Source: Thermostichus vulcanus str. 'Rupite' (lineage in GTDB: Bacteria; Cyanobacteriota; Cyanobacteriia; Thermostichales; Thermostichaceae). From it: a DNA stretch of 64,000 nt. The position numbers and the translations under genes were made by a program. Shown here piece after piece: positions 11,384-16,935 of the stretch. The notes beneath the pieces were generated by a model, which was given only the letters and a program-made list of their open reading frames with translations, was not told the origin of the DNA and ran no database searches. The DNA lies in NCBI RefSeq assembly GCF_022848905.1, contig NZ_JAFIRA010000001.1, forward strand, positions 124,001 to 188,000, in the 5' to 3' direction. Positions within the stretch are counted from its first letter, which is position 1. Each line of letters starts with the position of its first letter.

Positions 11384-14242
11384 ATGGTTCAGTCTGGGCC
11401 CCACTACTCTGATGGTTCAGAGGCAACAACACCTCTGGTGGCCTTGCAAGCCACGTTGCAGCAGATGCGGGAGCAGACCGACGCTAAGGCGTTGATTCAA
11501 CTCACCCTGGATTATGTTGGGGCCGTGTTTGTGGCACCCCTCATCTGGCTGGCCTTGTACGACTACCAGAACCATCAGCTGGTGGGCCAGGGTGGGGTTA
11601 CTCTCCCCGAGGATCAAACCCTGTTGCGGGCTGTGCATCCCCTCCAGCCAGGGGAAATTATGGAGCAGGTGGTGATCGAGCAGCGACCGATCAGCCTGCC
11701 GGATATGTCGCAAGAGCCCCGCATGGGCATTTGGCAACGGGAATCCAAGCGTTTGGGCGGGATCCAGGGTTGCTTGATCCACCCGATTCGCAGCCAACGC
11801 CGCTGCTTGGGCGTGTTGATGCTGGGATCCCAGGTATGGGGCATTACCACCAGCGAAGAGGAAAAAGCACTCCTCGGCATCTTGCTGGGGCAGTTGGCCG
11901 CCTCTTTGCAGCAGCTGGAATCCGCTTGGAAACAGCAGACCGAAAAGCGCCTTGAGGATCCTTTGGTCGCTTTGGGCATCGCTATGCGGCAGGCGGGATC
12001 CCTGCAGGAGCGGGTCAGCTTGGTAACGCAGGAATTACAGTCCTTCATCGGTGCGGTGCGCGTTCAGGTGTACTGGCACGAACGCGGCCAAGGGCAGTTT
12101 AGCCCCCATCTCACAGCCCCCAAAGCTGGCCCACCCGCTCCTCCTCTTGCAAAAGGCACCAAAACCGCAGCAACCCCAGCCCGTGATGGCAGCCTGCCCC
12201 TGCGGGAACTGGGGGATATGTACTACACCCTTGCCGATGGACAGGTGGTGGTGGCCCATGATGCCACAGGGACAACCCGCTCTGAGATCACCCCTAAATT
12301 GATGCAACAGTTGCGGGCTCAGGCGGTCTTAGCAGCCCCAATTTTGCTGCAAAAAGACCTGCTCGGGTTTATCTGCGTGGAATCGGATGTGCCCCGTACC
12401 TGGCAGGACACCGAGCGGCAATTGGTGGCAGCCGCCGGCAACTGGTTGGCGTTGGCTACACCTTTGGAAGGGCTGGATCAGAGGATCCGGCAGTTGGCCA
12501 GTGACCAAGAGTTTGTACAACAGGTGGCCCGTTCAGTTTACACCCAAGCGGATCAACAACAAGCTCTACAGCAGGCGATCAGCGGCTTGGGTCAACGCCT
12601 GAAAGCCAGTGCAGTGGTGGTGTTGATGTTGGATCCGGGTACGCAAACTCCGCGCCTGTTTTACGAATACCGCAGTGAGGGCAAACAGCCCCTACCGAAG
12701 CAATTCACCCCCTTGAGCGAACAAGACTGGGGGGATCTGATGCGCAATCAGGTATTGGTGGCGGAAAACTACGATCAAGATCTGCGGCTGCTGTCTTGGC
12801 GGCAGGAATTGGCTGCCTTAGGCACCCGTTCCCTAATGCTCACCTACACCGGACACGTCAGCGAAACCCAGGCTGCCCCCATTGAAGGGTTAATCCTGGT
12901 CATGCACCAGCAACTGCGGGCCTGGAGCCGGGAGGAGCGGCAACTGCTGCGGGGGATCGCTCAACAATTAGGGGTGGTGTTGCGGCAAAGTCAATTGGAG
13001 GAATCGCGGCAACGACAAGCGCAACTCCTGAATGGCTTGAGCACCACCTGTTTAACGCTGCAAAACCTCTCCACCCTGCCGGAGATCTACAACACCACCG
13101 TGCAACAAACCGCCCAATTGCTCGGGATCCCTTTGGCCCTCTTGGTCAGTTGGCGGCCCGGAGCCAGTCACGGCCAATTGCAACCTCCCTTTGCCACGGC
13201 TTCCGAGTTTCGTCCGACGGGCCCCACCGAGATCAGTCTGCAGGATCCCTTACTGGCTTACGCGCTGCAATCGGTAGAACCCCTGCCCCTCACCCACGAG
13301 CAGATCCCCTCCGCCAGCCGCACCTGGTTAAATTCCATTGGCTTAGGATCCTGGCTGCTCATGCCTCTGGGATCCGGGGCAGATTTGTTGGCTCCTTTGG
13401 GGGTCCTGATCTTGGGTGCAGAAGCCGGAAAAGTTTGGGATCCCTATGAGCGGGCGGCAGTGATGTTGATCGCCCAAACCTGCTGCTGGACACTACGGCG
13501 CATACTCTGGATCCACACGCTCCAGGAACGGCAGGAGGTGCTTAGTGAATTGAACTGGTATAAGCATCGCCGTCTGCTGGATATGCAGAATACCCTGCTG
13601 GAGAACCTGCGTCGTCTCGGTCAGGTACCGGAAACTCCCGGTGACGAGGCGACTCGCTGGCAGAAGGTGGTGGAGATCGGCAGAGGACTGCGGGATTTGA
13701 CCACCTACACGGGGCCGTTGCTGCAGTCAGAATCTTGGCAGGTGCGGCCAGATTCGGTATCGGTGCCCCTAGCGGCTTTGGTTCGCAAGGGTCTACGCCG
13801 ACTGGAAGGGCTGACGCAAAAACGAAAACTGTGGCCGCGGGCCCACGGGGATATGGCCATTGCCGTTCAGGGGGATGCAGGGCGACTGGAGATGATCCTC
13901 TGGGAGGTGCTGGTGGCAGCAGCGCAGCGCAGTCCGGAAGGGGGACGGCTGGATCTGTGGAGCCAAGCCAGCGAGGGGTATGTAGAACTGTTGGTGGTGG
14001 ATCAGGGCAGCTTTGACCCCAACCTGATGGCGGCGCTGCAGTTGGATCCGGAGATGGTGATCTACGCGGATCCCTTGCTCAAGTCTCCCCTCACGGTCAG
14101 CCCTGGCTTGGAACTGAGCCTGTGTCAACGGATGGTACAGCGGATGGGGGGACAGCTCTCCTTTTATCAGTCCTCCGACGGGCGCTACGTCTCTCGCTTG
14201 CTTTTACCAGTGGGCAGCGATGAGGTCAGGCCGGTAGCTTGA
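11384..14242 (+). CDS. multi-GAF sensor protein with degenerate histidine-kinase end
   Basis: This 952-residue soluble protein has about four GAF-like modules (roughly residues 10-190, 205-370, 385-560 and 570-715), then a helical dimerisation-like segment (LNWYKHRRLLDMQ, with His728) and a GHKL-type ATPase-like domain. The ATPase motifs are weak. The N box reads LWEVLVAAAQRSPEGG, without the usual Asn. G1 is VVDQGSFD, and G2 is PGLELSLCQRMV, lacking the normal Gly pattern. It may therefore be a pseudokinase or a scaffold that senses a ligand through GAF domains. The ATG at 11384 has GGGAGAA upstream. A start at 11309 would add 25 unlikely residues. No response regulator is adjacent. Confidence 0.8.
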   Translation: MVQSGPHYSDGSEATTPLVALQATLQQMREQTDAKALIQLTLDYVGAVFVAPLIWLALYDYQNHQLVGQGGVTLPEDQTLLRAVHPLQPGEIMEQVVIEQRPISLPDMSQEPRMGIWQRESKRLGGIQGCLIHPIRSQRRCLGVLMLGSQVWGITTSEEEKALLGILLGQLAASLQQLESAWKQQTEKRLEDPLVALGIAMRQAGSLQERVSLVTQELQSFIGAVRVQVYWHERGQGQFSPHLTAPKAGPPAPPLAKGTKTAATPARDGSLPLRELGDMYYTLADGQVVVAHDATGTTRSEITPKLMQQLRAQAVLAAPILLQKDLLGFICVESDVPRTWQDTERQLVAAAGNWLALATPLEGLDQRIRQLASDQEFVQQVARSVYTQADQQQALQQAISGLGQRLKASAVVVLMLDPGTQTPRLFYEYRSEGKQPLPKQFTPLSEQDWGDLMRNQVLVAENYDQDLRLLSWRQELAALGTRSLMLTYTGHVSETQAAPIEGLILVMHQQLRAWSREERQLLRGIAQQLGVVLRQSQLEESRQRQAQLLNGLSTTCLTLQNLSTLPEIYNTTVQQTAQLLGIPLALLVSWRPGASHGQLQPPFATASEFRPTGPTEISLQDPLLAYALQSVEPLPLTHEQIPSASRTWLNSIGLGSWLLMPLGSGADLLAPLGVLILGAEAGKVWDPYERAAVMLIAQTCCWTLRRILWIHTLQERQEVLSELNWYKHRRLLDMQNTLLENLRRLGQVPETPGDEATRWQKVVEIGRGLRDLTTYTGPLLQSESWQVRPDSVSVPLAALVRKGLRRLEGLTQKRKLWPRAHGDMAIAVQGDAGRLEMILWEVLVAAAQRSPEGGRLDLWSQASEGYVELLVVDQGSFDPNLMAALQLDPEMVIYADPLLKSPLTVSPGLELSLCQRMVQRMGGQLSFYQSSDGRYVSRLLLPVGSDEVRPVA

Positions 14243-14352
14243 GTCTCCCGATGCCGTTCCCGTTCTTTACATCTCCAGCCTTCACTCCATCTCAAGGCAA
14301 TAGACCCAGATATGACGTTCTCCCGACACTGACCTGGGGTACAACGCGGGCT

Positions 14353-14443
14353 TCACTGGATCGCTCCAGCAACTACCTGCTTCGTTCGGTCTTGTCTAGG
14401 CAATGCCCCCGACAGAACCCGTCCACAGGTGATTGCATCAGCC
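14353..14443 (-). pseudogene. 3' fragment of an interrupted older tnpB
   Basis: Read on the minus strand, this stretch encodes ADAITCGRVLSGALPRQD and then KQVVAGAIQ before a TGA at 14353-14355. This is the kind of Cys-Gly-containing tail found at the C-terminus of cyanobacterial TnpB proteins. It continues exactly in frame from the fragment at 15775-15917 when the intervening element 14444-15774 is removed: the split codon AC|G is restored to give GLT-ADAIT. The original gene also lacks its N-terminal part. Confidence 0.7.
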
Positions 14444-14600
14444 TTGACACTCCCCCGGTTAGAAACCGGGGGATTCTCCCTTCTAGCCCCTTGCAACCTT
14501 AGACTGCAAGGTATTCATGGAGTTCAGGGGATTGCCAACTACCCCATCCCCTGAGCCGACCCTACCTATTACGGGCAGGGCTTCTTTTAGACTCAAGGGA
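14444..14600 (-). ncRNA. candidate reRNA (omega RNA) at the 3' end of tnpB
   Basis: In this family the guide RNA overlaps the 3' end of tnpB and the right end of the element, with the guide taken from flanking DNA. Here that would be minus-strand RNA ending in the right-end hairpin and continuing into the bases below 14443. The extent is a guess from family knowledge. The visible support is only the position and the hairpin. Confidence 0.3.
14452..14472. repeat. right-end hairpin of the IS608-like element
   Basis: Perfect 9-base stem (CCCCCGGTT at 14452-14460 pairing with AACCGGGGG at 14464-14472) around the loop AGA. It lies between the tnpB stop and the TCAA end, where single-strand transposases of this family recognise the right end. 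An identical hairpin marks the other end at 15738-15758. Confidence 0.85.
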
Positions 14601-15679
14601 CACGAAAAGCCGTCCCACTGGGCTAGGTTCATTGCGGCATTCCAGTCGGCATCACAGCAATACCCGTCCTGCCCGGTGAACAAATGCCCACTCCTTTTCC
14701 CAATGGCCTCCGGCCCTGCGGAGCAGATCAATCCTGTCCTGTGGTCGGTTTTGGATGTGTAGGCAGCAGGACGTTTATGCAGCGTCCTGCCCGCCATTTC
14801 CAGCTTGTAGGCAACCTTCCACTCCAAGTCGTAGTACGACCAGGTATGGCGCGATTTCCCGGCATCCGAACGCGCCTTCTGGCTCTGTCTGGATTGGCGG
14901 ATACCCGAGAGGTCTTCCATCCACACATCCGCATTTACCGCATTGGCAAACCGCACAATGCGGCGGCTAACGGTGTGGTTGACCGCCCTCATCCACCGGG
15001 CTTCTTTGCGCTCCAGTCGCTTGAGTGCTCGGTATTTACCCGCCTGCTGCAACTGGGCACGACGCTTCTGGAAACGACGACGACGATAGGCTACCTCTCC
15101 ACCCCCAAAAAACACCGCCCGACCCCAACGGGTGGCCGCCACTGCCAAACGGTTCTGCCCCCGGTCAACACCCAGTCGCTCCGTACTCTTCACTTCGGGA
15201 ACTTCCCAAGTGATAGATACAACCGCATACCAAACCCCACGTATTTGCATCAGTTTCAAGGTTCCCCGTTCACAATCCTGCTCAGCCAGGATGCGCTCAA
15301 GACGCTCGGCATAGTAGGAACTGCTAACCTCAAGGGGAACCCGCTTGTCACCCTGAATCGTGGGAAAACTCACCGAGTAGGTGCTACCTACTTTGTGCAG
15401 CTTCCAGTTTTGGTTGTTGACCTCTGGCCAGAACACTTTGAAGTGTTTGACCCGCTGGCCGGCTTTCCCCTTCAGGACACGAATCACCTGGTTGGAGAGG
15501 GCCGACTTGAGTGGTGTCACCACTTTGGCGGTTGTTAATGCTTTTCGTTCCTTTGGACTGATGCGGAGCAGTTCGTTTGCCAGTTCGGTTGTCGCACAAA
15601 CCGTCTGGTCGAACATCTCTGCTTTGACCGCATTGAGGTCAAGAAACTTGAGCTTGAGTGTGGTGGTGACCCGTTTCAT
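14483..15679 (-). CDS. tnpB: TnpB, IS200/IS605-family RNA-guided nuclease-like protein
   Basis: This 398-residue protein has the RuvC-like core with all three acidic residues in place: D172 in LGVDRGQN, E255 in VWMEDLSG and D345 in CDADWNAAMN. The zinc-ribbon segment between the last two, normally two CxxC pairs, is degenerate. It reads TSKTDHRTGLIC and, later, TGQDGYCC, so canonical zinc binding looks lost or altered. The family cleaves DNA under guide RNA and helps the element persist at its donor site. It is the only gene in this element. The ATG at 15679 lacks a strong ribosome site. Confidence 0.9.
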   Translation of the reverse strand: MKRVTTTLKLKFLDLNAVKAEMFDQTVCATTELANELLRISPKERKALTTAKVVTPLKSALSNQVIRVLKGKAGQRVKHFKVFWPEVNNQNWKLHKVGSTYSVSFPTIQGDKRVPLEVSSSYYAERLERILAEQDCERGTLKLMQIRGVWYAVVSITWEVPEVKSTERLGVDRGQNRLAVAATRWGRAVFFGGGEVAYRRRRFQKRRAQLQQAGKYRALKRLERKEARWMRAVNHTVSRRIVRFANAVNADVWMEDLSGIRQSRQSQKARSDAGKSRHTWSYYDLEWKVAYKLEMAGRTLHKRPAAYTSKTDHRTGLICSAGPEAIGKRSGHLFTGQDGYCCDADWNAAMNLAQWDGFSCPLSLKEALPVIGRVGSGDGVVGNPLNSMNTLQSKVARG

Positions 15680-15707
15680 GGGGACTATTGTATGTACTAT
15701 TTCTGTT

Positions 15708-15723
15708 GCTGAATAAATTCAGC
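15708..15723. repeat. short palindrome upstream of tnpB
   Basis: GCTGAATAAATTCAGC is a near-perfect palindrome (stem GCTGAAT with a two-base centre) between the tnpB start and the left-end hairpin. It could be part of the left-end structure or an operator for tnpB. Confidence 0.5.
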
Positions 15724-15737
15724 CTGTGCGCTTATAT

Positions 15738-15758
15738 CCCCCGGTTAGAAACCGGGGG
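15738..15758. repeat. left-end hairpin of the IS608-like element
   Basis: The stem and loop are identical to the hairpin at 14452-14472: CCCCCGGTT at 15738-15746, loop, and AACCGGGGG at 15750-15758. It lies 16 bases inside the left boundary at 15774. Confidence 0.85.
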
Positions 15759-15774
15759 CTTTACGCTGCTTTTC

Positions 15775-15917
15775 GTAAGTCCCACGACTGAGAGCCCATG
15801 ATTGCGAATCACTTGAGCGCTGACCACATCCCTCGGCTTGACCGAACCGCATTCACCGCAATGGTGGGTGCGCTCTTGCAGCGCTTTACGGACTGCAGCC
15901 CTGCAGTCAATCCTCAT
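15775..15917 (-). pseudogene. C-terminal fragment of an older tnpB, target of the IS insertion
   Basis: On the minus strand this encodes a zinc-ribbon and RuvC end typical of cyanobacterial TnpB: LQERTHHCGECGSVKPRDVV followed by SAQVIRNHGLSVVGLT. The CxxC pair and the final catalytic Asp (KPRDVVSAQV) are visible. The upstream two thirds of the gene are missing, and the fragment is cut after TTAC by the IS608-like element. Its continuation lies at 14353-14443. Confidence 0.75.
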
Positions 15918-15981
15918 ATCCCTTTTTGAAATCGGTAAAAAAAAAGACTTATTGGGGGAAGAAGGTTTCCAGCCAAGAGGT

Positions 15982-16935
15982 TTAATCTTGAGTCACTTCC
16001 AGCTGATTGTCTGGATCCAGGCTGACCCGAAACTGTTCTGCACCCGTTGGCAAGGGATCCGGAGGCAAATCCGGTAAATCCGCCAGAGGGGTTTGTCCCA
16101 GCCGCTCTTGGGCCAGCTCGTTGGCGGGTTCAGCAGCCAGCAGGGATCCCGTCGCATCCACTGTTACTCGATAAACCAGGCTCTCCTGTAAATCCGGGGG
16201 AGATTGCCACTGATCTGCCAATTGCTCCCGGAGACGGCTGAGAAGATCTAGATCATCCACATCAGCCTCTCGATCTGCAGAAAGGGTGCGGCTATCAGCA
16301 GGGGCAGTCTCTTGGCCAGCTGTTTCGGCGGACTCCAGCGAAGTGGGCGTGGTGAGTTGTTCTTGCACCCGATTGGCAGTTTGGTTTTCTGCTTCTGGGG
16401 TACGGGTGGCCAAAACCCCAACACCGGCCACAACAGCGATTCCCCCCACCACCAGAGCGGCAATGCCGGTGGGTTGACGATACCAAGCCCGTACCGGTTG
16501 AGTCTTGAGACTGCTCAGATGCGGGATATCTGTCGCCACCTGGGTCAAGTTCTCCAGCAGATCGTAAAGCTGCGTCATGGAGAGATCCACCTGGGCAATC
16601 CCTTCTTCTCCCTGCCGAACCGTGAGACGGTGAAAAATAAAATCGAGAGGACGAATGGCAACTGTGCCGCTGAACGTCCCCTTCGGCTCACCCCGCAGCT
16701 GGGATTCAACGTAGCGATTGATCACGGTGATTAGGTCGTTCAGCCAAACGCTATCTCCCCGCAGCATTTTGCGGGCTTCCCCCTGTCGGATTTCCAACTG
16801 GCACTCAAACCCTCGCTGTATCGCTTGCACCGGTGGGGCGGTACCCTTCTCCGGGGCATCGGGGAGAGCCGCGGTTTCCCCCTGAACCGTGAGGGTGGAG
16901 GTGGGTTGCTGATAGGCGTGGCTAATACTAGGCAT
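15982..16935 (-). CDS. DUF4335 family protein (cyanobacterial)
   Basis: This 317-residue cyanobacterium-specific protein begins MPSISHAYQQPTSTLTVQGE, the usual DUF4335 N-terminus, and has a soluble domain of about 170 residues, one transmembrane helix (GIAALVVGGIAVVAGVGVLA) and an acidic, probably disordered C-terminal part. The function is unknown. It lies 54 bases downstream of the DUF3038 gene on the same strand. As I recall these two families often occur together, so the proteins probably act together. I chose the ATG at 16935; a start at 16971 would add 12 residues unlike the family. Confidence 0.8.
   Translation of the reverse strand: MPSISHAYQQPTSTLTVQGETAALPDAPEKGTAPPVQAIQRGFECQLEIRQGEARKMLRGDSVWLNDLITVINRYVESQLRGEPKGTFSGTVAIRPLDFIFHRLTVRQGEEGIAQVDLSMTQLYDLLENLTQVATDIPHLSSLKTQPVRAWYRQPTGIAALVVGGIAVVAGVGVLATRTPEAENQTANRVQEQLTTPTSLESAETAGQETAPADSRTLSADREADVDDLDLLSRLREQLADQWQSPPDLQESLVYRVTVDATGSLLAAEPANELAQERLGQTPLADLPDLPPDPLPTGAEQFRVSLDPDNQLEVTQD

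Follow-up and report, generated by a model that had tools for sequence, protein, structure and literature searches.

In the window analysed here, the whole 64,000-nucleotide stretch of Thermostichus vulcanus str. 'Rupite', we identify a nested insertion: a tnpB-only, non-autonomous member of a multicopy IS608-type IS200/IS605 family that inserted 3' of a TTAC word near the 3' end of an older tnpB gene, which belongs to a different TnpB family. We put the probability of this reading at about 97%. The element has exact borders, an empty-site structure, the cleavage and guide words of IS608 and an intact tnpB, and one member of its family carries an open tnpA. The features are listed in Table 1.

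Table 1. Features of the nested locus, in order along the minus strand, and the tnpA of a related copy. Positions are those of the window unless a contig is named.
Feature	Position	Strand	Evidence
Older tnpB relic, upstream part, C-terminal codons ...DCRAAVRKAL to ...VVGLT	15775..15909	-	NF040570 positions 353-388
TTAC, target and left cleavage word directly outside left end	15775..15778	-	30/30 copies; equals CL of IS608 (PMC5934647)
Inserted IS200/IS605-family element, tnpB-only, IS608-type ends	14444..15774	-	1331 bp; borders common to 30/30 complete genomic copies
AAAG, left guide word, foot of left hairpin	15759..15762	-	Sequence; equals IS608 GL
Left-end hairpin CCCCCGGTT-TCT-AACCGGGGG	15738..15758	-	9-bp stem, 3-nt loop
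tnpB of inserted element, 398 aa, intact	14483..15679	-	NF040570 E 5.5e-34, over cut-off; Pfam Cas12f1-like_TNB, OrfB_IS605
24-nt double-hairpin micro-insert in tnpB, AT + CTGC.TCC.GCAG GGCC.GGA.GGCC, in frame	14705..14728	-	9/30 copies have the insert, 21/30 are without it at the same place
GAAT, right guide word, foot of right hairpin	14473..14476	-	Equals IS608 GR
Right-end hairpin, identical to left, CCCCCGGTT-TCT-AACCGGGGG	14452..14472	-	Sequence
TCAA, right cleavage word, final 4 bases of element	14444..14447	-	30/30 copies; equals CR of IS608
Older tnpB relic, downstream part: last codons to stop, conserved 3' tail/right end	14313..14443	-	G010 identity
tnpA of L023	C2:58186-58533		Open frame; found in L023 only

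The initial annotation proposed that the insertion could be reconstructed to the exact base. Such a reconstruction, made from the letters alone, can rarely be checked against an uninterrupted homologue; here it can, and it holds. Removal of 14444-15774 yields the open frame ...VIRNHGLSVVGLT|ADAITCGRVLSGALPRQDRTKQVVAGAIQ*, whose stop codon at 14355-14353 (minus strand) coincides with the left limit of the stretch noted at the outset (14353-15917). The joined sequence is open, as had been predicted, and its length is 234 bases rather than the 233 given. Each flank was searched separately in 39 related genomes, and both match a single contig of another cyanobacterium (G010) at the adjacent bases 214474/214475. 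Window positions 14313-14443 share 92% DNA identity with G010:C207:214342-214474, a match that ends exactly at the insertion point, and positions 15775-15909 share 82% with G010:C207:214475-214609. The joined sequence aligns to G010 with no gap at the junction, and a second genome, G381, agrees. In G010 the locus is a complete, uninterrupted tnpB of 412 aa. Its product finishes in ADEIACGRVLSGALPRQDRTKQVVAGAIQ, in agreement with the predicted tail ADAITCGRVLSGALPRQDRTKQVVAGAIQ at 27 of the last 29 residues, and the similarity runs past the stop codon into a conserved 3' tail, so the gene continues as the joined frame had it.

More diverged uninterrupted homologues are present in G167, G266 and G134, and all five homologues are without the hairpins at this place. 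It counts against our reading that G010 and G381 have TCAC in place of the window's TTAC. A search of genome contigs returned only TnpB proteins of about 50% identity (Planktothrix, Crocosphaera, uncultured Oscillatoriales), which were of no help with the junction. It also counts against it that the empty site at the window locus comes from homologous rather than orthologous tnpB copies, because the two flanking genes do not occur together in the congeners examined. For five other copies of the element, matching element-free sequence exists in the congener G003: at three of them (L013, L015 and L017) the empty site keeps TTAC and the junction is exact, and at the other two (L019 and L027) the empty site is present with a different word in place of TTAC.

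A same-genome DNA search with the element gave 48 matches, 30 of which are complete copies with both ends located. In every one of these, the left end directly follows TTAC and the right end reads TGTCAA, with TCAA inside the element. Their flanks are unrelated, and base frequencies beyond the border words show no conservation. The comparison of both ends with other copies in the genome, which the initial annotation had recommended, thus returned identical borders throughout, and the predicted borders are not due to chance. The base following TTAC is G at the window copy, the rarest base at that position (2/30 copies), a further point against our reading. In five congeners, the element DNA found no match except one 34-base stretch in G005, so the burst of this family is recent.

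Published work on IS608 gives TTAC and TCAA as its cleavage words and AAAG and GAAT as its guide words (PMC5934647). The earlier suggestion that TTAC and TCAA fit IS608-type chemistry is borne out, since both equal the published words, and the guide words do so too. The identical hairpins said to lie at the two ends, each with a 9-base stem, were located at 15758-15738 and 14472-14452 on the minus strand. Several features of the IS608 group are present: insertion 3' of a fixed TTAC without target duplication (30/30 copies; the empty sites contain no duplicated bases) and subterminal hairpins whose 5' feet carry the guide words AAAG and GAAT. With CL, CR, GL and GR all equal to the IS608 words, the label ‘IS608-like’ appears correct for the ends and the chemistry. 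IS608 (ISHp608) of Helicobacter pylori has the same cleavage and guide words and also inserts 3' of TTAC (PMC5934647). The window copy differs from it in having no tnpA and in its two hairpins, which are identical and perfect; the published description of IS608 calls its hairpins imperfect palindromes (PMC5934647).

The window copy has tnpB but no intact tnpA, and this is true of 28 of the other 29 complete copies, as it is of the IS1341-type (tnpB-only IS200/IS605) elements. Unlike that type, they clearly belong to a family in which one member, L023 (C2:58104-59876; 1768 bp), has these ends and also a tnpA, which lies between the left end and tnpB. This tnpA is open and divergent and encodes 144 aa; the closest relative of its product among solved structures is the TnpA of ISHp608 (E 3e-20), with the His-x-His and Tyr regions aligned. 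The Y1 HUH transposase of the IS608 group is therefore found in the family, through L023, and not in the window copy. In five further copies, the tnpA region survives in shortened form. Since it has no tnpA, the window copy cannot move by itself. The simplest reading is that the tnpB-only copies would be deletion derivatives moved in trans, and TnpA probably acts in trans on them.

The TnpB of the window copy scores 118 bits against the NF040570 (guided_TnpB) profile, whose cut-off is 100. By eye, we recognise the RuvC-type motifs D (LGVD), E (MED) and D (CDADWN), and the protein weakly matches TnpB and Cas12f-like chains of solved structure. The frame is open and conserved in all 30 copies, and a pooled pairwise estimate over them gives a dN/dS of about 0.11. 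It resembles ISDra2 TnpB and the other guided TnpB nucleases in passing this profile and differs in its C-terminal zinc-finger region (SKTDHRTGL...), where the usual paired CxxC is missing. In elements of this type, TnpB is thought to take its guide from the right flank, with the insertion word as its motif, and to cut the empty site, which favours retention of the element (PMC11870625). By analogy, the window TnpB would act as an omega-RNA-guided cutter with the target word as its TAM.

The insertion may have proceeded as follows. TnpA from L023 would have supplied the activity in trans, with the left-end guide AAAG pairing with TTAC, and the element would have entered as single-stranded DNA without target duplication. 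Precise excision would restore the joint TTAC|GGCTGATGC. A TnpB with a guide from the right flank (GGCTGATGCAATCACC...) would then cut the TTAC-adjacent empty site, for which the predicted cleavage target is TTACGGCTGATGCAATCACC, and the element would be kept. With 30 copies, a tnpB under selection, one tnpA-bearing member and empty sites in a congener, the family offers a good natural system for studying how tnpB-only elements persist.

What the element entered was, in its present form, only part of a gene. Homology to the older tnpB begins at 15909 and reaches 14313, covering the last ~74 codons and the 3' tail but none of the N-terminal ~338 codons. The claim that one tnpB element had landed in another is therefore sound as to an insertion into the tail of an older tnpB, and not as to a whole gene, the target being a relic. 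Past the stop codon, several genomes remain similar to the tail at the DNA level, which is what a tail encoding omega RNA would show, and it is probably an omega-RNA region; Rfam gave no meaningful match in the region and no match to an omega-RNA model. The older tnpB either was already a 5'-truncated relic or would have become one later. If it became one later, the insertion may have killed a complete, active gene whose 5' part was deleted only afterwards, a sequence of events we regard as possible, at odds of roughly one in three. The ~74 codons are free of stops and frameshifts, and their alignment still spans the whole C-terminus, which speaks for it; against this, the first ~338 codons are gone right beside the insertion, where no trace of them was found, and the conservation of the tail could stem from RNA rather than protein.

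Two further explanations were considered. Recombination between element copies could have joined two different tnpB relics, so that the flanks were never one interrupted gene: the genome holds at least 30 copies able to recombine, and some rearrangement did happen nearby, as the flanking genes are not neighbours in congeners. Both flanks, however, match one contiguous stretch in G010, and likewise in G381, and independent relics would not restore the frame and a gap-free alignment; the contiguous homologues refute this explanation, and we consider it very improbable. Even less credible is that the borders are an assembly artefact, or that the older tnpB tail has the hairpins in common with the element. 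Repeats may be misassembled in a draft genome such as this one, with its 120 contigs, but the contig is unique on both sides, the 30 copies have the same borders in different flanks, and the uninterrupted homologues are without hairpins.

The flanking genes (a GAF/kinase-like gene and a 329-aa gene; window 14242-15982) lie far apart in the congeners examined, which makes the locus a rearrangement breakpoint as well. With 450 bases considered on either side of each of the 30 copies, the window copy alone proved to be inside a tnpB and one other, L002, beside a tnpB element; we claim no preference of the element for tnpB genes. At L002 (G000:C36:12168-13502), the element abuts to the base another tnpB element at the latter's right end, and the TTAC is provided by that end (...GTCGGGTAGTTTAC); L141, L145 and L130 are listed with it.

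The nested insertion is itself ordinary and of a kind already known. A less ordinary by-product, and a lead worth following, is a set of micro-inserts in tnpB. Across the 30 copies, the length of TnpB ranges from 390 to 416 aa, always in frame, owing to inserts of 24 or 27 nt that occupy four sites. These are polymorphic between copies, among them the window copy, L003, L015, L019, L020, L021, L023 and L025. The unit is a double hairpin with loops TCC and GGA and covarying stems, apparently framed by AT; in a strict scan, the one at 14705-14728 is the only such unit in the window. We built a covariance model from 15 units. As the units were picked for 8/9 pairs, the covariation arises partly by construction, and the only independent evidence is the ninth pair, which is paired in 15/15 units, together with the flanking AT. 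In this genome the model gave at least 138 strand-matches, many being one site counted on both strands; it gave 57 in G003, 37-38 in G004 and G005, 11 in G002 and 7 in G001, with few or none elsewhere. At loci fetched through the model, 14 of 27 units lie within 600 bases of a tnpB, a count inflated by duplication of the family; the genome has 75 TnpB matches.

We tentatively propose, while thinking it somewhat less probable than its opposite, that tnpB genes of this genus are preferred sites for an undescribed mobile double hairpin of 24/27 nt, apparently framed by AT, which would insert in frame and so leave TnpB readable, and would move independently of the IS that carries it. If the micro-inserts are confirmed to be mobile, they could illustrate the spread of very small repeats within coding sequence. 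Two known classes of repeat invite comparison. The cyanobacterial SDR repeats (Elhai et al. 2008, as cited in PMC4390886) are hairpin repeats of 20-30 nt that appear mobile, and by description, rather than by sequence, they are like the micro-inserts in being small, hairpin-forming and apparently mobile. Rickettsia palindromic elements (RPE) are palindromic inserts that lie in frame in proteins (PMC10969869), as the micro-inserts do, and are about 150 bp long, compared with 24/27 nt here.

Units also occur at other loci. At L143 (G000:C14, about 16812-16844), a cysteine-desulfurase-like gene carries one in frame close to its 3' end, and the orthologue of this gene in G003 is missing exactly 27 nt at the unit. 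Another, at L127 (G000:C56:5612-5644), lies between adenylylsulfate-kinase-like and aminotransferase-like genes, within a stretch of 49-51 bases that the G003 orthologue lacks. At L067, L068, L118 and L132, three 27-nt units follow one another in tandem in or beside tnpB genes. Beside a tnpB at L141:1068-1500, there is a long repeat run, TVASAVRS/VLRTADA in open frames with masked bases between, which looks related to the micro-unit.
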